In this document: piece after piece, positions 49,533-64,000 of the stretch | How positions within the stretch are numbered: the stretch's first letter is position 1 | Layout: every line of letters starts with the position of its first letter | Made by a program: the position numbers and the translations under genes | Source: Paenirhodobacter ferrireducens | Lineage (GTDB): Bacteria; Pseudomonadota; Alphaproteobacteria; Rhodobacterales; Rhodobacteraceae | DNA length: 64,000 bases | NCBI RefSeq assembly: GCF_004022265.1 | Contig: NZ_SAVB01000008.1 | Coordinates: 1 to 64,000 of the forward strand | Direction of reading: 5' to 3' | Notes under the pieces: model-generated | What the model was told of the DNA's origin: nothing | The model's database searches: none | The model's input: only the letters and a program-made list of their open reading frames with translations

Positions 49533-49609
49533 GCACCCGTAGCTCAGCTGGATAGAGCATCAGACTACGAATCTGAGGGTCGGGCGTTCGAATCGCTCCG
49601 GGTGCACCA
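49533..49609 (+). tRNA. tRNA-Arg (anticodon ACG)
   Basis: A complete 77-nt tRNA with encoded CCA. The acceptor arms GCACCCG (49533-49539) and CGGGTGC (49599-49605) pair perfectly. The anticodon stem-loop is TCAGA-CTACGAA-TCTGA, giving anticodon ACG, and the T-arm contains GTTCGAATC. It reads the CGN arginine box after A-to-I editing at position 34. Confidence 0.97.
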
Positions 49610-54190: not shown

Positions 54191-54374
54191 TTGCCGCGCG
54201 GCGACTCGGGCGGGCCGTGTGGCCTGCCTGTGTGGCGCCAGGAGGCCGGATGGGGCCCGGCGCGGACTGCCTGCGTGAGACCTGAACGGCACCCCTGCCG
54301 CGGCCGTGGCGCCGTCGGCGCAGCCCGCAGCGACGCCCTCATCGGGCATCTTCATCGAAGTCGCTGGAAAGATT

Positions 54375-54425
54375 TGGAGGCGGGTACCGGAATCGAACCG
54401 GTCTTCACGGATTTGCAATCCGGAT
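54375..54425 (-). tRNA. tRNA-Cys (GCA) 3' fragment, probable integrase attachment site
   Basis: The minus strand reads anticodon loop TTGCAAA (GCA), T-arm ACCGG-TTCGATT-CCGGT and TACCCGCCT-CCA, the 3' half of a tRNA-Cys. The 5' half is missing: the D-arm and the partner strand of the acceptor stem are replaced by AT-rich DNA unrelated to tRNA. A 3' tRNA fragment ending exactly at CCA is the usual scar left where an element integrated by a tyrosine recombinase meets the chromosome. The element lies to the right of this point. Confidence 0.75.
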
Positions 54426-54603: not shown

Positions 54604-54646
54604 ACATTCTTCCGCCGTGCCTCGCAAGTTTTGTGGAGGCTGCGCG

Positions 54647-55525
54647 ATGAGCTACCACGTCGAGTCCATTTGTGATCGCCGCAGATTTGGCAGCGCAACG
54701 CGCAAGCAGATCGTGATGTATCTGGCCAACAAGGCCAGCGATGACGGCACCGGGATCTGGTGTTCGAAGCACACCATCGCGCGGCATACCGAGCTGAGCC
54801 TCGCAACGGTCAAGCGTGTTATCCGCGACTTCCTGGCTGAGGGCATTTTGCTTGCCACCGGGCTGCGCGACACCTCGCGCCACGGGCAGACCGTTGTCTA
54901 TCGCATCGTGCTGGAGGCGGTTGAAGAGCTGGAGCTTTTGCAGTGGAGCACAGGTTCATCGACAACCGGGGTCACACTGAACCCGGTTCCTCCGGTGCCC
55001 GCAACCGGGGTCACGGTGAGCCCGCAACCGGGGTCAGGGCGACCCCCAAACAATCCTAAGAACCATCCTGAGAATCCCCCTTCCGCGCGCACGTCTGCAC
55101 GCGAGGCGGCGGATGCTGATCTTGAACCACTTTGGGAGGCCTACCCGGCAGATCGGCGAAGGGATCGCAAAGCGTGCGGGCAGATTCTCGCGGGGGCTCA
55201 GGCCGAGGCCAGTTCCGAAGAACTGACTGAGGCGGCCCGGACCTATGCCGCAGAGACCGCCGATTACACCCGGACGAAGGTGATGTTTCTCGACAACTGG
55301 CTGCGCACGGGGAAGTGGCGGCGGTACGTCGAAGAAGCCCGCGGGCGGGCACGCGAGAAGGAATCCCGGGCAAGAACCGATGAGGAGACGATGATCCGCA
55401 GCGCCGCGCGGTGGATCCTGGAGCGCAGTGCGATGTGCCGGCATGTGCCCCGAAAATACGCGCTGAAGGCCGTCGAGCGCGGGCTCATCACTCTGCGGGA
55501 TGCGCAAGCGGCGGGGGTGTTGTGA
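54647..55525 (+). CDS. Helix-turn-helix replication-type protein
   Basis: A 292-aa protein. Residues about 5-85 form a winged helix-turn-helix resembling plasmid replication or partition regulators: RKQIVMYLANKASDDGTGIWCSKHTIARHTELSLATVKRVIRDFLAEG in conserved order. A Pro/Thr-rich linker with repeated TGVT segments (about 108-140) joins it to a C-terminal helical domain (about 160-292) with LWEAYPADRRRDRKAC and TKVMFLDNWLRTGKWR, the latter common in plasmid/phage replication proteins. GGAGG lies seven nt before ATG 54647. It is the first gene inside the element. Initiator or copy-control function is inference. Confidence 0.6.
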   Translation: MSYHVESICDRRRFGSATRKQIVMYLANKASDDGTGIWCSKHTIARHTELSLATVKRVIRDFLAEGILLATGLRDTSRHGQTVVYRIVLEAVEELELLQWSTGSSTTGVTLNPVPPVPATGVTVSPQPGSGRPPNNPKNHPENPPSARTSAREAADADLEPLWEAYPADRRRDRKACGQILAGAQAEASSEELTEAARTYAAETADYTRTKVMFLDNWLRTGKWRRYVEEARGRAREKESRARTDEETMIRSAARWILERSAMCRHVPRKYALKAVERGLITLRDAQAAGVL

Positions 55526-55815: not shown

Positions 55816-57243
55816 ATGGCCGGACCCCAGTTTTTCCACCTGCAGACCTATTCCCGAAAGCCCAACAAGACAGGCCAGTCGGTCGAACAGGTTCTGGCAG
55901 AGGCACGCCGCGATCCGATGTTCTCGACGCACGTTTCCGAGCCGCGCCCCTTCCGGGTGATCGCCGGCGTGTCGCCTCACGAGGTGCAGCGCCTGCATGA
56001 CGAGATGGTGGCCGCGGGCAGTGTCGCGGTCACGCTGAAGGATGGCCGGGTGGCGCGCCGGAGTATCCGGACTGACCGTCACACCCTGCTGACGGCGGTG
56101 GCCTCGCATCCGCATCTGACCGCGCAGATCATGGAACGCCCCGAAGCGCGGCGAGACTATGACGCCTGGGTGGAGCGGAACCTGACGTTTCTGCGCGGCC
56201 TCTTTGGCGAGCGTCTGGTGAGCGTGATCGAACATGTCGACGAGGAGCACCCGCATCTTCACGCCTACGTCTTGCCGCTGGATGATCCCGCCTGTTCTGC
56301 CCGGGATCTGAACCCGTGCTGGCTGGCCAAGAGCGAGGCCGAAGCCGGCGCGCGGGCCGAAGGACATGACGACAAGACGGCGGTGAAGCATGGCAATCAT
56401 GCCTATCGCGAACGGGCGCGTGCGCTTCAAGACCAGTATCACCGCGAAGTGGGGCTGCCGTCCGGTCTGACCCGCACCGGCCCGAAACGGGAGCGGCTGT
56501 CGCGGCAGCAATGGCGCGCCCGGAAGGACGAGGCCAGCCGCAACGCCCGCACTCTGAGGCAGATGGAGGAGATGGTCAGCGACCTCGCCGATCAGGAGGA
56601 TGAGCTGAGTGCCTCGGCGGAGAGAATGGCACGCGATCTTGAGGCGAGGCTTCATCAGGCGGAGGTGCTCCATGCCGAGGCAGAAGCCGAACGACATGCG
56701 GCGGCGCAGGACCGGGCCGCGGCGGCGGCAGGCAGAAAAGAAGTCGCCGCCCTCCGGTTGGCGGCGGAGGAGGAGGTCCGCAAGATCAGGAGCGCGGCAG
56801 AACAGAAGGCGACGGATCTGATTTCCGCCGCCGAAGAGATCAGGGCCGCCGCCGGAAGGGAGGCCGAAGCGGGCGCTCGCAAGATCCAAGACGACAGGCG
56901 GGCGTTCGAGGCCGAAAAGGCGATGATCGCACGTCGCGTCGCGCAGGAAGCGGCGGCTGTCGCGGTGCTGGTCCTCGTTGGAGTGCTGACCGGCAAGGTC
57001 GGCCGTCCGGCGCAGGGCTCCGGGTGGGAGATCCGCGACAGGGCGCTGCGCGAACGGGTCGAGGCCCTGCAGATCGGCTCGTCGCTGCGAGAAGCGGTGA
57101 CGGTCGTCACCTCGCTCTGGGACCGGCTGAAAGCGCGTCTGTCTGCCCCGGAGCTGGCCCGGGAGCAGGAAAATGCGGCCGAGCGGGTGCGGGAGCACGA
57201 TCTTCCGGCCCCGGCCTTTCGGAACAGGGAGATCGGGCGATGA
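55816..57243 (+). CDS. Mobilization relaxase (Mob/Pre-type)
   Basis: A 475-aa relaxase expected to nick one strand at oriT and lead it into a recipient. The catalytic domain (about 1-240) contains VIEHVDEEHPHLHAYVLP near residues 136-153, the HxDExxPHxH metal-binding motif of Mob/Pre (MobV) enzymes; FHLQTY near the start is a motif I candidate. Residues about 240-390 are a long Ala/Glu/Arg-rich coiled coil (EVLHAEAEAERHAAAQDRAAA). A short hydrophobic stretch AAAVAVLVLVGVL lies near residue 380. Start ATG 55816 lies 45 nt after the last inverted repeat. Its stop overlaps the next gene by 4 nt. No coupling protein is visible. Confidence 0.85.
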   Translation: MAGPQFFHLQTYSRKPNKTGQSVEQVLAEARRDPMFSTHVSEPRPFRVIAGVSPHEVQRLHDEMVAAGSVAVTLKDGRVARRSIRTDRHTLLTAVASHPHLTAQIMERPEARRDYDAWVERNLTFLRGLFGERLVSVIEHVDEEHPHLHAYVLPLDDPACSARDLNPCWLAKSEAEAGARAEGHDDKTAVKHGNHAYRERARALQDQYHREVGLPSGLTRTGPKRERLSRQQWRARKDEASRNARTLRQMEEMVSDLADQEDELSASAERMARDLEARLHQAEVLHAEAEAERHAAAQDRAAAAAGRKEVAALRLAAEEEVRKIRSAAEQKATDLISAAEEIRAAAGREAEAGARKIQDDRRAFEAEKAMIARRVAQEAAAVAVLVLVGVLTGKVGRPAQGSGWEIRDRALRERVEALQIGSSLREAVTVVTSLWDRLKARLSAPELAREQENAAERVREHDLPAPAFRNREIGR

Positions 57244-58021: not shown

Positions 58022-58864
58022 TTACAGATCCATGTTCGAGGCCTTGGCCGTCCCGGTCAGGGCCTCGTTGATCTGGCGATCCGTTTCCTCGCGGGCCTTG
58101 CGCGCCCGTGCGAAATCGGTGAGCGAGAACCGGATCTTCGATTGCCCGGCCTTCGAGTCGTAAACGACCTGATAGCTGGCCGAACATCCCGGTGCGATGG
58201 GCTTGTCGCTGTTCAGCTTTTTGTAATCCACCTGCATCGTGCCGAAGCCCGAGGACACGCAGGGGACGTATTCTGTCGTCGAGGTCCCGGATCTGGTCGT
58301 CTCCTCCATCTCCAGCGGGGCCGCCTGATCCAGCGCGGTCAGCTTCGCGCCCGCCTCGTCCCAGCCGTAAAGGATCGTCATCTTCCCGCCGTGATCGACC
58401 TCCACGAGCGAGGGCTCGCCATATTCCCCGGTGAGCTGCGCGAGCAGCTCTTCCGGCTTCGGCAGATCGGCGTTGCTGCCCTGGATCATGCGGCCGACCG
58501 AGATGACCCTGCCGCCAAGCGCGCCCAGATCCACCGTGCCGCTGACCTCCTCATAGCCGGCCCCGGACATGCGCGTGCTGAGGCCCACGCCGGCCGTGCC
58601 GAACTTTGCCACGGTCGACAGATCGAAGGTCTTGCCTTTGGGCGAGGAGGCACGCAGGTCGACCTTCCCGGTCGACAGCTCCATGCCGCGTTTCGCCATC
58701 GCTGCGCGGGCCTCGTCCAGCGTCATACCCGGAACGATCCCGATCACGGCGAGCTTGCCGGAGGCCGGCGGTGCGGAATAGTCCACCTCTTTCAGCGTGT
58801 CGGCGGACACCAGACCGGGAAACAGGACGGCGCAGACCGAGGCGGCAAGGCATTTCTTCAACAT
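58022..58864 (-). CDS. Exported hypothetical protein
   Basis: A 280-aa protein with a Sec signal peptide (KKCLAASVCAVLFPGLVSA, predicted cut after VSA near residue 20), so it acts in the periplasm or outside. The mature part starts with a short repeat-like helix-turn, IGIVPGMTLDEARAAMAKRG (about 40-59), of the type found in many small envelope proteins. It has two cysteines (CVSSGFG, APGCSASYQ) near residues 200-230 that could pair. ATG 58864 has AGGAG six nt upstream. It is the last of three minus-strand genes. Function unknown. Confidence 0.65.
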   Translation of the reverse strand: MLKKCLAASVCAVLFPGLVSADTLKEVDYSAPPASGKLAVIGIVPGMTLDEARAAMAKRGMELSTGKVDLRASSPKGKTFDLSTVAKFGTAGVGLSTRMSGAGYEEVSGTVDLGALGGRVISVGRMIQGSNADLPKPEELLAQLTGEYGEPSLVEVDHGGKMTILYGWDEAGAKLTALDQAAPLEMEETTRSGTSTTEYVPCVSSGFGTMQVDYKKLNSDKPIAPGCSASYQVVYDSKAGQSKIRFSLTDFARARKAREETDRQINEALTGTAKASNMDL

Positions 58865-58926
58865 AATGGACTCCTGACGATACGATGGGGTGCAATCCGC
58901 GGCATCGGTGGCTGAAACGCGCCCCG

Positions 58927-59550
58927 TCATTTCACGAAGCATCCGCGCCCCCCTTCAAAGGACAGCAGGCTCGACACGCCGCCGACCTTCGCATCATCGG
59001 TGACGCGCGTGGGTCTGGGCGGTGCTTCACCATCAAGTTCGGCGGACAGGATATTCGCGAAGAAGAAGTTCTTCTTCGCACCGCCCGGCATCGTGCCGCC
59101 CATTTCCCATTCGCCGGCGATGGCTTCGAGCTGCCGACTGCCCTCCTCGAAGATCAGGGCATCGGTGTCGGAGAAATTGATCTTCGCGTCCCACATGGCA
59201 TTGTTCTTGAGATCGCCGTCTCCGTTCGGCTTGTGATGCGTGATCAGAAGATTATCCCGGCCCCACCTGGAGCAGACCTTGAACCCCGCTGCCTTGAAAT
59301 CGGCACGCGCCTGATCATCCAAGAACATGTCGCCATAGACGCCGACCGCCACCCGCGACTTGATCGGCGCGAGGATCTTGATCGCCTCGTCGATCTTCTC
59401 GCGCGAGACCGCGCCGTAGATCAGCCAGACAGCTTTTCCGTTGGACGCCATCGCCCGGTCCAGATCCTGCCGGATCGGAGCCAGATCGAGCCCTTCGGCA
59501 TAGGCGGGCGACGCGAGGGCCAGCAGAAGCCCGACCACAATTTTCTTCAT
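58927..59550 (-). CDS. Exported hypothetical protein
   Basis: A 207-aa protein with signal peptide KKIVVGLLLALASPAYA (cut after about residue 18). The mature domain begins LDLAPIRQDLDRAMASNGKAVWLIYGAVSREKIDEAI and contains LLITHHKPN near residue 102. The order is loosely reminiscent of phospholipase D-like nucleases, which carry an HxK motif, but the motif is not clearly present, so I leave it unnamed. GAGGA lies seven nt before ATG 59550. It sits 62 nt upstream of the 280-aa exported protein gene in the same direction. Confidence 0.6.
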   Translation of the reverse strand: MKKIVVGLLLALASPAYAEGLDLAPIRQDLDRAMASNGKAVWLIYGAVSREKIDEAIKILAPIKSRVAVGVYGDMFLDDQARADFKAAGFKVCSRWGRDNLLITHHKPNGDGDLKNNAMWDAKINFSDTDALIFEEGSRQLEAIAGEWEMGGTMPGGAKKNFFFANILSAELDGEAPPRPTRVTDDAKVGGVSSLLSFEGGRGCFVK

Positions 59551-59587
59551 TATCAATTCCTCAAACCAAAATCGTCGCAGTCGGGAC

Positions 59588-60190
59588 CTATCCGTCGATC
59601 AGCCCCGACTTCGCACCGCCGGTGTTCGCGGGCAGACCGAGCTGGAACCGTTCCGCGTGGCTCAGCACGCGCCCGCTGCCATCCGCATAGACACCCGAGT
59701 TGCGATAGCTGGCTTCCGCCTCGGCCTTCCGACCGGCCATCGACAGGCGATGCGGCCTCGCCGCTTCCTCCGCCATTCGGGCCGCGTAGTTCGCATCCCG
59801 GCGCGCCTGATCTTCGGCCATGGCAGCACTGACAGCGGCGCGCGACAGCTCTCTGGTCGCATCGCTCCACTGCTCGGCACGGAGAATGACCAGCCGCTCG
59901 ACCAGCGCCTCCCGGCGGGATGCCGGATCGGAAGGAAATCTCTCGTCCACATAAGCCCGGTAGATTGCAGGGCCTTCCCGCAGCGACTCCTGATTGAGAA
60001 CCCAATAATCCTCGCGCCACAGGTGCGCGGGCATCGGGACAGCAGCCACGATCTCTTCCAGCATGGCCTTCGGCAGAGCCTTCGCCCACGCCTTCGCTTC
60101 ACGCTTCGCGGCAGCCTGCTCCGCCCGGGTCCGGAACCAAAGTCCCACGCCGGCCAACAGATCGTTTGCAGCAGAGATGGCGTCTTTCAT
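59588..60190 (-). CDS. Hypothetical protein, Ala/Arg-rich helical
   Basis: A 200-aa protein with no signal peptide. The N-terminal half has RAEQAAAKREAKAWAKALPKAMLEEIVAAVP then WREDYWVLNQESL. The middle (about 95-165) is helical and charged, and a short C-terminal segment reads NSGVYADGSGRVLSHAERFQLGLP. I do not recognise it. It is the first gene of the three-gene minus-strand unit and is divergent from the XRE regulator across an intergenic palindrome, so it is probably controlled by that regulator. Confidence 0.55.
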   Translation of the reverse strand: MKDAISAANDLLAGVGLWFRTRAEQAAAKREAKAWAKALPKAMLEEIVAAVPMPAHLWREDYWVLNQESLREGPAIYRAYVDERFPSDPASRREALVERLVILRAEQWSDATRELSRAAVSAAMAEDQARRDANYAARMAEEAARPHRLSMAGRKAEAEASYRNSGVYADGSGRVLSHAERFQLGLPANTGGAKSGLIDG

Positions 60191-60280: not shown

Positions 60281-60532
60281 TTGGCGGGCAGCGTTCATTC
60301 AGATGCGTATCGCAGTCTTCTGAAGGCGCTGATTGCCCTTCGGACGGAGCGCGCCATGTCGCAGGCCGATCTGGCCGCTAAGCTGCACAAGCCGCCGTCC
60401 TTTGTTGGAAAATATGAGCTGGGCGAGCGCCGGCTTGACGTGATCGAGCTGATGGTGATCCTGCGCGAGCTTGATGCAGATTTCGAGAGCTTCTGGACCC
60501 ACGCCGCGATCACGCTGCCGGATCGGCTGTAA
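60281..60532 (+). CDS. XRE-family transcriptional regulator
   Basis: An 83-aa DNA-binding protein with a Cro/CI-type helix-turn-helix: LIALRTERAMSQADLAAKL (about 17-35), then KPPSFVGKYELGERRLDVIELMVIL, in which FVGKYELGERRL carries the recognition-helix region. The start appears to be TTG 60281, preceded by AGGCGG; no better start lies downstream before the domain. It is divergent from the 200-aa protein gene across an operator-like palindrome and probably represses that unit and itself. Confidence 0.75.
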   Translation: MAGSVHSDAYRSLLKALIALRTERAMSQADLAAKLHKPPSFVGKYELGERRLDVIELMVILRELDADFESFWTHAAITLPDRL

Positions 60533-60611
60533 CGGCAGCTCTTGCGGGCTATTGACCCGGCCCCCGCTGGTGCGGCACAACCGCGGCCCCGCCTGCAACG
60601 GATCTTTCACG

Positions 60612-61169
60612 ATGACGCATTGGTACACTGCCGACCCGCATTTCGGGCACGAGAACATCATCCGGAACGCGCATCGCCCGTTCCGGGACACGAGCCATAT
60701 GGACTCGGTGCTGATCGAGCGGCTTTGGGAGAAGGTCGGTCCCGAGGATGACCTGTGGATCGTCGGAGATTTCGCCTTCGGCCCGCAGGCCAAGGATGAA
60801 AGCTGGCTGCTGACGATCTTCGGACAGCTTCCCGGAGCACGCCGGCATCTGATCGTCGGCAACCACGACGGCGCCCTGACGCAGGCGCTGCCCTGGGACA
60901 GCGTAGCGCTTCTGGCCGAGGTGGAGGATCCGTCGGCGGAGCGACCGGTGACGCTCTGCCACTACCCGATGATGACCTGGAACCACGCCCGCAAGGGCGT
61001 GCTGCATCTGTTCGGCCATGTGCATGGCAACTGGAAGGGAAGCGCGAACGCGGTCAATGTCGGGGTAGACGTCTGGGATTACTACCCCGTCACGTTGCAG
61101 GACGCCGCCCGGCGGGCAAAGGCATTGCCGGCGAACCGCCACTGGAAGGATGTCGAGCCGAGGGCGTGA
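60612..61169 (+). CDS. Metallophosphoesterase
   Basis: A 185-aa calcineurin-like phosphoesterase. Motifs in order are YTADPHFGHENI (about 5-16) with the first metal-binding Asp and His, DDLWIVGDFAFG (about 46-57), HLIVGNHDG (about 77-85), the His in CHYPMMTW (about 117-124) and FGHVHGNW (about 137-144). All metal ligands are present. The substrate cannot be inferred; related small phosphoesterases on plasmids and phages act on nucleotides or phosphoproteins. It follows the XRE gene on the same strand after 79 nt. Confidence 0.85.
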   Translation: MTHWYTADPHFGHENIIRNAHRPFRDTSHMDSVLIERLWEKVGPEDDLWIVGDFAFGPQAKDESWLLTIFGQLPGARRHLIVGNHDGALTQALPWDSVALLAEVEDPSAERPVTLCHYPMMTWNHARKGVLHLFGHVHGNWKGSANAVNVGVDVWDYYPVTLQDAARRAKALPANRHWKDVEPRA

Positions 61170-61561: not shown

Positions 61562-64000
61562 TTACTTCCGGAAATATGCTTCGGCCGTGTCTATCTTCCT
61601 CCTAGCTTCGGAAATTTCACCATCCGTGAACAAGTTAGCCTTCGTGAATATGGCGCGCGCCTTCCCAAAATCATGGGTTTCCGTGAAGAACTCCGCCTGC
61701 GTCTCAAGATACATGCGATAGTTCTGCCGCGATTCGTCGCTTCGACCTTGAGTGGTTCGCTCACGCATCCAATTCAGCTCTGTTTGAGCAGGCCCAAATC
61801 TTCTTGCGGCAATAAGTATCTGCGCACTTATCCGATGTGCCTCAAACACATTAGGAGTCATGTTAAGTGCCGACCGTATAGTATTCGTTGCGCCAGAAAT
61901 ATCTCCAGTGACGAGCTCAAGTTCGGCGCGCCTCGTGAGAAAGAAGGATCGGCCGTCTTCAGCCGACAGCACCTCCAACTTCCCCAGAATATCCTGAAGC
62001 TCCCAATTCTCTTGAGCGTTTTTCCCAAGTTTCCTAATCAGTGCGGCCGCGAGGACATCGTAGATGAATGAGTTCGTGGATCCAGCGGCGAGGACTTCTC
62101 TCGCAAATGATTCGGCATCCTCAAGCAACCCGCGTGCAAGACAGATTGACGCAAGCTCGCGAGCGGGAGATGCGCTGCCTGGCGATAGCCGGTAGGCCTC
62201 ACGGAAGAAATTCTCGGCGATTGGCAAATTCCCTTTCAACCTTTCACGAAAGCCCTTCAAGAAGTTGATGTTGCTCTGCGCAAATGCGTCACCTCCATAA
62301 CCTTCCAATAACTCGATGCCGCGCGTAAATTCATCATCATCAAATCGCCTGGACGCTGCTAGGCACAGATACCGACATGCCGTAACGCGACCTTTGAAGG
62401 AAAGACGTTCAGACCTATTTAGGGCTTCTTTGGCTAGCCTTATAGCTTCCGTATAATCGCCCTGATCGTATTTCTCCTTCATCAACCAAACGAAATGAGA
62501 TGGGAGAATAAGAGCGGATACGTAGGACTGCGCCTCAATGCCGGAGTCGATCGAAGAGATGATCGCGGTATCAAGAAGCTGAATCGGTGCAGTTCCATCC
62601 CCGAAGCGAACATTTAGGCCGTCTGCAATTGCACTCACTGCTCGACGCACCTCCGACGTCGAAGCCGCAGCCCGAGGATCTTTTTCGGCCGCAATTCTCA
62701 AGGGGGGGGCAATTTTGTATACAGACCCGGCTGTTTCCAAAACATGAAGGTCGATCAGCCGCTCGAGAGCCTTAGCTACTTGTTCAGGGGCCAAGTCGCA
62801 TCCGGCGACCAGCGTCTCAAAGTCTAGACTCGGAACCATTGTTAGGACTGCAACTACCTTTCTCTCATCATCGTTTAGCTCAATCTGATGAAGATATTCC
62901 GTTCCCTGCCGATGTTTCCAAATATAAAACTCATCCGCTTCCGCCAAGAACACGTCGAGCGTGCGGGCCTGGATTTCCTCAACTATCCGGTAGTGATTGT
63001 ATGGGTGACCCTCGCTCATCTCCGTCAGTTGATCAACCTGAGCGGGATTTGCCGAAATGCCCGCTGCCGATATAACTTTTGACATTAACCGGCGCGATGT
63101 TTTATGGTCGAATGATGTTAGATTGGCATAGGCAACATCATTTCGTCGAAATCGCATTGGCATCATTCTGCGCGCCACAACGGCAAGTGGCGGGTGCGGG
63201 CGGTTGGCTATCTCTTTGATAACCGACTCCGCATCCGGGGTGAAATCGCCAGAGTCCTCTAATAGCCCGCCCTCATCCTCCATAATTAAGGCTTCTCCTT
63301 GCGAGATAAACGAACTAATTAGATCTGCTACTGTTTTGGCTTTTTTCTCGGGCGCCTGCATCGAGAAGTCAAGGTCATACGCCTGAAGATTTTTTACAGA
63401 AATATTTGGATGGGCTGCGAACAAAACCAATCTAAATAATTCTTCAATACCCACATCGGATGGAATAGAAACTTTGGGAAAAACCTGGTTCACTTCAGGA
63501 AACTGGTCGGAGTAAAACTTTCGCACAAGAGTGCGGCGTCCAGACCCATAGATTCCAGATACATATAGCGCCTTGGATGGCGGCCGATTTGGGTCAGCTG
63601 TTTGCGCCTCCAGTGCTTCAATTTCCCTCTCTCTCCCAATGAATGGATGCGCGCCCATTTGCTTTTCAGAACCAACTGAAATCATGGTTCCTTGAATCAA
63701 TCTGGCGGCGCTTTCTGGCGATATTTGTTTGCGAACAATATTAAATAGCTTAAGCACAGACGATGCACGCTGGAAGGATGTCTCATCGAGGCATATTGGC
63801 AAAATGCGTTGAATCGTTCCCCTTGCGGCGAGCTCTATCGCCAATCCCGTCTCGAAGTCTACATAATGTGAGTCAATCGCCGGGCCGCTAAGAAAAATAC
63901 AAAATATATCTGCACGATTTAGAGCCTTGATGATTGCTGCTGAGTTCAAGATTCCCGCGTCGAACGTCTCGGAATCAAGCTCGTAGGTTCCAGGCTTCAG
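61562..64000 (-). CDS. TIR-NTPase-TPR protein, NLR-like candidate antiphage sensor (5' end outside window)
   Basis: The frame is open to the window edge, so at least 812 residues are encoded and the N-terminus is missing. The visible N-terminal part is TIR-like: ALNRADIFCIFLSGPAIDSHYVDFETGLA, where the Glu of VDFE occupies the position of the catalytic NADase Glu. An NTPase domain follows, with a Walker A variant GIYGSGRRT (Arg in place of Lys) and Walker B-like ALIMEDEGG. The second half holds helical TPR-type repeats (RGIELLEGYGG, AENFFREAYRLSPGSASPARELA). Such proteins sense phage products and deplete NAD. Base composition is much more AT-rich than all neighbours. Confidence 0.75.
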   Translation of the reverse strand: MKPGTYELDSETFDAGILNSAAIIKALNRADIFCIFLSGPAIDSHYVDFETGLAIELAARGTIQRILPICLDETSFQRASSVLKLFNIVRKQISPESAARLIQGTMISVGSEKQMGAHPFIGREREIEALEAQTADPNRPPSKALYVSGIYGSGRRTLVRKFYSDQFPEVNQVFPKVSIPSDVGIEELFRLVLFAAHPNISVKNLQAYDLDFSMQAPEKKAKTVADLISSFISQGEALIMEDEGGLLEDSGDFTPDAESVIKEIANRPHPPLAVVARRMMPMRFRRNDVAYANLTSFDHKTSRRLMSKVISAAGISANPAQVDQLTEMSEGHPYNHYRIVEEIQARTLDVFLAEADEFYIWKHRQGTEYLHQIELNDDERKVVAVLTMVPSLDFETLVAGCDLAPEQVAKALERLIDLHVLETAGSVYKIAPPLRIAAEKDPRAAASTSEVRRAVSAIADGLNVRFGDGTAPIQLLDTAIISSIDSGIEAQSYVSALILPSHFVWLMKEKYDQGDYTEAIRLAKEALNRSERLSFKGRVTACRYLCLAASRRFDDDEFTRGIELLEGYGGDAFAQSNINFLKGFRERLKGNLPIAENFFREAYRLSPGSASPARELASICLARGLLEDAESFAREVLAAGSTNSFIYDVLAAALIRKLGKNAQENWELQDILGKLEVLSAEDGRSFFLTRRAELELVTGDISGATNTIRSALNMTPNVFEAHRISAQILIAARRFGPAQTELNWMRERTTQGRSDESRQNYRMYLETQAEFFTETHDFGKARAIFTKANLFTDGEISEARRKIDTAEAYFRK

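Follow-up and report, generated by a model that had tools for sequence, protein, structure and literature searches.

A divergent TIR-NLR homolog with an arginine P-loop on a mobile element at tRNA-Cys in Paenirhodobacter ferrireducens

At the end of the DNA stretch analysed here (the window, i.e. bases 1-64000 of a contig of 163,767 bases) lies a gene whose product, as judged by homology, belongs to the known TIR-NLR defence family as a divergent member, and which probably encodes a single-gene anti-phage receptor that would sense its trigger by means of TPR repeats, switch via a STAND core without a canonical ATP-hydrolysis cycle and act through NAD+ cleavage by its TIR domain. The protein has the TIR-STAND-TPR architecture, is intact and is carried by a mobile element, and both its TIR glutamate and the arginine of its P-loop are invariant in the compared homologs.

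Within the window the frame (61562..64000, minus strand) is truncated by the window edge, and the contig was therefore read onward over 66 more bases (22 codons) up to a start ATG at 64066. The full ORF (contig 61562-64066, minus strand) encodes 834 amino acids without an internal stop, which rules out that the gene is a fragment, and the N-terminus of the product, MMRVFLSHSSVDK, is a typical TIR start. The GC content of the gene is 0.499, compared to 0.654 for the whole window; the gene is, in agreement with what had been noted earlier, far more AT-rich than its flanks, that is, the remainder of the element (0.644 to the left and 0.598 to the right). Foreign DNA is often AT-rich. This composition, together with the finding of the gene in 0/17 of the other searched genomes of the genus, would suit a decaying or regulatory TPR protein that has no part in defence and is a passive passenger of the element. 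We hold such a role to be highly improbable, considering that the frame is unbroken over 834 residues, that the catalytic glutamate and the P-loop are under strong constraint and that the protein is a homolog of a tested defence protein.

The mobile setting follows from a 55-bp perfect direct repeat, of which one copy, an attachment-site copy, is located at 54368..54422 (plus strand) and the other at contig 69877-69931, where it carries the 3' part of tRNA-Cys(gca) plus adjoining bases. The intact tRNA-Cys(gca) is found at contig 69884-69957, outside the window; within the window ARAGORN detected only a tRNA-Arg (49533-49609). The repeats thus bound an element of ~15.5 kb at tRNA-Cys, which agrees with the sequence-only reading that the gene is cargo of a tRNA-Cys element. 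Adjoining the tRNA-Cys the element carries a tyrosine integrase (Pfam Phage_integrase), and just past the window (contig 64388-67599), on the strand of the TIR-NLR gene, the genes for a restriction enzyme of the EcoRII-C type, a Vsr nuclease and a cytosine methyltransferase that resembles Dcm and has a helix-turn-helix at its N-terminus make up the EcoRII-type restriction-modification set of the element. The other part of the element includes a replication-initiation-like protein (54617..55525, plus strand; PHROGs phrog_270, 57.7 bits; Pfam HTH_36 below cut-off), a candidate Mob_Pre-like relaxase (55816..57243, plus strand; Pfam Mob_Pre E=0.0017, below cut-off), an XRE-type HTH regulator (60281..60532, plus strand; Pfam HTH_3, 34.8 bits) and three proteins without a family (58025-58942, 58930-59556 and 59591-60190, minus strand), for which no match was obtained with Pfam at E<=0.01 or with PADLOC or PHROGs at E<=0.001. 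A phosphoesterase-like protein (PHROGs phrog_547, 151.8 bits) is encoded next to the TIR-NLR gene but on the other strand (window 60471-61169). No virion protein appeared among the Pfam matches of 14 element proteins (TIR-NLR included), nor among the PHROGs matches of nine of them. The tRNA-Cys end was found in 16 of 18 genomes of the genus, the own genome included. Extra copies of that end occur in other genomes of the genus, at G002:C15:243614-254326 and G009:C22:18622, and ARAGORN reported no tRNA in the two respective loci (L058 and L061); the two copies in the former genome, ~10.6 kb apart, suggest other elements at the same site.

The TIR effector domain covers approximately residues 23-125 of the 834 within the window (63692..64000, minus strand; residues 1-22 lie outside it), where the end at residue 125 is an estimate and the Pfam TIR_2 match itself covers residues 4-97. 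On the full protein this match scores 45.6 bits (Pfam cut-off 28), versus 23.1 bits, i.e. below the cut-off, without the N-terminal 22 residues. The predicted catalytic glutamate of the TIR pocket, E72 of the full protein (63851..63853, minus strand), is read in the segment PAIDSHYVDFETGL, which rules out a missing TIR Glu, and it is invariant in 18/18 homologs. The TIR-like segment with a conserved Glu that had been noticed beforehand is thus found again, also once the absent N-terminus is added. The Pfam search of the full protein, as had been proposed, in addition places TPR_19 (34.9 bits, cut-off 25) and TPR_14 (26.2 bits, cut-off 23.5) above their cut-offs and AAA_16 below (21.3 bits, cut-off 32.6). 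The TPR-like helical repeats named in the same reading are thereby retained; they form the predicted sensor (approximately residues 520-834; 61565..62509, minus strand) and are also seen as helical pairs in the AlphaFold (AF2) model.

For the window fragment the AF2 model has a mean pLDDT of 72.4 (the model of a full-length relative has 64.9), and its TIR part is poor, with block means <60 for an input from which the 22 N-terminal residues are absent. The best Foldseek match of the fragment model is 6mfv, a STAND protein with TPRs (E=2.3e-9; poor superposition, with an rmsd of 16 and a TM of ~0.3); after it come spliceosomal and TTC7B chains and further chains with helical repeats. A modelling of the TIR pocket had been proposed; the models lend support to the core and the repeats in outline, but not to the fine structure of that pocket.

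A central STAND-type core is indicated by this best Foldseek match and by a sequence alignment with the E. coli TIR-NLR protein (see below) that runs through the core. It contains the P-loop GIYGSGRRT (residues 171-179; 63530..63556, minus strand), in which, as read before, Arg takes the place of Lys, and which does not have the Walker A GK[ST] of a canonical STAND NTPase. The Walker B segment ALIMEDEGG (residues 259-267; 63266..63292, minus strand) retains acidic residues (IMEDE), and at residues 353-355 (63002..63010, minus strand) there is a GHP that we take to be the GxP-type STAND motif.

TIR-NLR (PDLC03015; E=3.6e-27) is the sole PADLOC family that the protein matches at E<=0.001, a threshold used here in place of PADLOC's own cut-offs. 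The best stretch of the protein aligns to positions 1-373 of the 824 of this profile, and a Zymomonas relative matches positions 3-819. Neither an Avs nor a ThsB profile was matched by the protein at this threshold, and no ThsA match occurred among the 13 other element proteins scanned (for one of these, among the best 25 of 59 families); membership of Avs (AVAST) and of Thoeris was rejected on these grounds. The PDB contains a single strong relative (E=7.6e-24), the 824-aa "Tetratricopeptide repeat protein" of 9m0n/9umd, to which the similarity spans residues 9-683 of the 812 submitted; it was not among the best 50 Foldseek matches of the fragment model (library to April 2026), and no paper naming 9M0N/9UMD was found in the open-access literature. 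A distant DNA search with a Photobacterium relative matched at least 26 of 5426 E. coli genomes, a lower bound (in the ten matches listed 16% of the query is covered). In E. coli KL53 the TIR-NLR gene resides between a psu (phage polarity suppression) remnant and an integrase, beside tRNA-Leu, a position consistent with the psu-int hotspot that Rousset 2022 describes for P4-like satellites (PMC9122126). The 824-aa protein encoded there aligns with 9m0n end to end (1781 bits) and reaches 1879 bits with the PADLOC profile; 9m0n/9umd is nearly identical to this KL53 TIR-NLR, a member of the family tested in Rousset 2022. In that study TIR-NLR is reported to give E. coli protection from phages, P2 among them, and is described as a single-gene system (PMC9122126). 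The protein studied here and the E. coli protein are 23% identical across the 727 positions of their alignment, and they share the GRR-type P-loop (GLIGVGRRS in E. coli). A role in defence is suggested by homology to this experimentally tested family. The sequence-only reading of a TIR-NTPase-TPR protein and candidate defence system is in this way given a family.

Four full-length relatives with 40-42% identity to the protein were recovered from genome contigs. In the tree, the protein falls within a clade of six (support 100/100), of which the other five are alphaproteobacterial; the RK, RT and RG forms of the loop are in separate groups, except for one RG and one RT that are sisters. Uncertainty attaches to the deep splits of this tree and to L047, whose branch is very long. 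The family-alignment search matched 4/385 genomes of the class at E<=1e-15, the own genome included, and 8/397 genomes of the phylum, three of these with TPR-only proteins. The PADLOC-profile search matched 22/398 genomes at E<=0.001, most of them over the TIR or TPR part alone; the family is rare in the genomes sampled. Nothing useful came from the first genome-contig scan, the viral-contig scan and the phage-collection search. The TIR-NLR proteins of a Zymomonas plasmid (L008) and of Acetobacter musti (L053) are 87% identical. These genera belong to different orders, and such identity hints at recent transfer.

At 11 loci the neighbours of the TIR-NLR gene were compared and none was shared save for one weak methyltransferase match, with the sequence of several loci reaching no more than 0.4 kb beyond the gene on one side; the absence of conserved neighbours implies that TIR-NLR is probably a single-gene system. 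The comparison bears on the possibility that the TIR domain, as in Thoeris, produces a signal nucleotide for a partner rather than draining NAD+. Bacterial TIRs often produce cyclic ADPR isomers (PMC10022894), and six of the seven relatives that matched PADLOC TIR-NLR have weak ThsB-profile matches as well. Yet the partner that this scheme calls for did not appear: the 13 other element proteins scanned gave no ThsA match (for one of them, among the best 25 of 59 families), the neighbours are not conserved among the 11 loci, and Rousset 2022 (PMC9122126) describes the system as consisting of one gene. We therefore regard signalling to a partner as unlikely, and direct NAD+ cleavage as the preferred activity.

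The P-loop was compared in 18 homologs, namely the protein itself, the four from genome contigs, six from plasmids and seven from other genomes. Left out of these 18 rows were three proteins matched in the TPR part alone and without a TIR motif (L046 and L048, which were shown to be TPR-only, and L049, which was judged so from its match region and the absent motif), the duplicates L004, L038, L039 and L044, and short TIR-only or TPR-only matches. Eleven columns are invariant (F5, S7, S60, E72, R145, G171, G176, R177, P355, F606 and A617). The Walker A Lys position is thus Arg in all 18, and the Ser/Thr position is R in 13, K in two, T in two and G in one. Ranked by conservation, the P-loop 9-mer is number 9 of 826, and the eight higher ones are all overlapping windows at the TIR start, so that it is the best conserved 9-mer outside that start. 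By contrast, GK[S/T] was found in 59/59 NACHT/NB-ARC control loci, a contrast that is somewhat flattered because the NACHT and NB-ARC selection profiles themselves favour Lys, and in which some NB-ARC loci are weak matches that may be other P-loop ATPases. These loci represent 56 distinct proteins (three occur twice); 57 of the 59 carry [G/A]x4GK[S/T] close to the profile match and the remaining two read GKS and GKT. The control comprises the 60 retrieved loci minus L087, excluded because its match begins after the P-loop; listed matches without a retrieved locus fall outside it.

A local mutation or decay of the loop is ruled out by its presence in all 18 homologs. The P-loop is the best-kept part of the switch and therefore not merely decayed; its strong conservation makes the Arg loop look to be under selection. 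Because the 18 homologs and the E. coli protein all have it, the Arg does not set our protein apart: the loop departs from the canonical form, but this property is common to the homologs and not peculiar to one of them. Altered nucleotide handling may fairly be supposed for the whole family rather than for this protein alone. A very divergent TIR protein (L047, genome G309) has the P-loop GFNGYGRRTA without a PADLOC match at E<=0.001, and the GRR signature may hence extend past the described family. In the open-access literature, outside of which most subscription papers fall, no paper on the Arg P-loop of TIR-NLR was found, and the word "Walker" is absent from the main text of Rousset 2022 (PMC9122126).

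The Arg P-loop hints at a switch that resembles that of NLRs but dispenses with canonical ATP hydrolysis. The Walker B motif is less strictly kept (Asp264 in 14/18, FFLDDG in the E. coli protein, and a neighbouring acidic residue in 5/18, the own protein included), but its acidic residues in the own protein and the strong conservation of the P-loop imply that nucleotide binding, and perhaps slow hydrolysis, is likely retained; with moderate confidence we propose that the TIR-NLR homologs bind nucleotide without hydrolysing it canonically. The retained residues are also what an ordinary ATP switch would predict, in which Arg stands in for Lys, ATP is bound and slowly hydrolysed, and ADP/ATP exchange controls activation: the Pro of GxP, the Arg of FxGR and the two P-loop glycines are invariant in 18/18, and the Walker B of Avs5 appears to matter more for binding than for hydrolysis (PMC12931631). 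Such a switch is possible, but we do not favour it, as both key Walker A positions are altered (the Lys in 18/18, the Ser/Thr in 16/18) and a Lys-to-Ala exchange in Walker A of Avs5 abolishes immunity, with no Lys-to-Arg exchange mentioned alongside it (PMC12931631). For TIR-NLR itself, Rousset 2022 (PMC9122126) proposes that the TPRs sense infection and that ATP or GTP drives oligomerisation.

In the mechanism that we favour, the C-terminal TPR solenoid would sense a phage component; the STAND core, with G-x4-G-R-R-[ST] instead of G-x4-G-K-[ST], would keep the protein off until, upon release, it could oligomerise without a canonical ATP-hydrolysis cycle; and the clustered TIR domains would then cleave NAD+, whereby the infected cell would be arrested. 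For this protein we infer that the TPRs recognise the trigger, that the protein oligomerises and cleaves NAD+, and that hydrolysis has been lost. More speculatively, TIR-NLR could represent an NLR-like branch that lost ATP hydrolysis long ago, in which the selected Arg-Arg loop would act as a fixed clamp for a ligand (ATP, ADP or a nucleotide derived from NAD, for instance the product of the TIR domain), and activation would come from the sensor alone or be amplified by that product, without an ATP/ADP cycle.

With this protein, a single-gene phage defence that has been tested in E. coli reaches into a clade that is mainly alphaproteobacterial. The comparison also yields an NLR-like family with a proven member in which every compared relative is without the Walker A Lys that Avs5 needs. 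It thereby makes testable the question whether NLR-like receptors are switched on by ATP hydrolysis, or by a bound ligand alone.

Plant TIR-NLR (TNL) and animal NLR receptors follow the same effector-switch-repeat plan, a likeness of plan only; their P-loops are of the canonical GK[ST] type and their sensors are LRRs. Avs5 (AVAST) likewise combines an N-terminal NAD+-directed effector, a central STAND core and C-terminal repeats. The effector of PaAvs5-1 is SIR2-like and its P-loop is the canonical GPAGSGKT with a required Lys (PMC12931631), and our protein is without any Avs profile match at E<=0.001. The TIR-NLR found in P4-like satellites of E. coli (PDLC03015; 9m0n/9umd) is alike in the order TIR-STAND-TPR and in size (824 versus 834 aa), in the TIR Glu, the GRR[ST] P-loop and the GxP, and in forming a one-gene system on an element that carries an integrase and lies at a tRNA gene. 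It differs in that the present protein is 23% identical to it and belongs to a separate clade of six, the others of which are alphaproteobacterial, and in the setting, namely a tRNA-Cys element with a restriction-modification set here versus a P4-like satellite at tRNA-Leu in E. coli.
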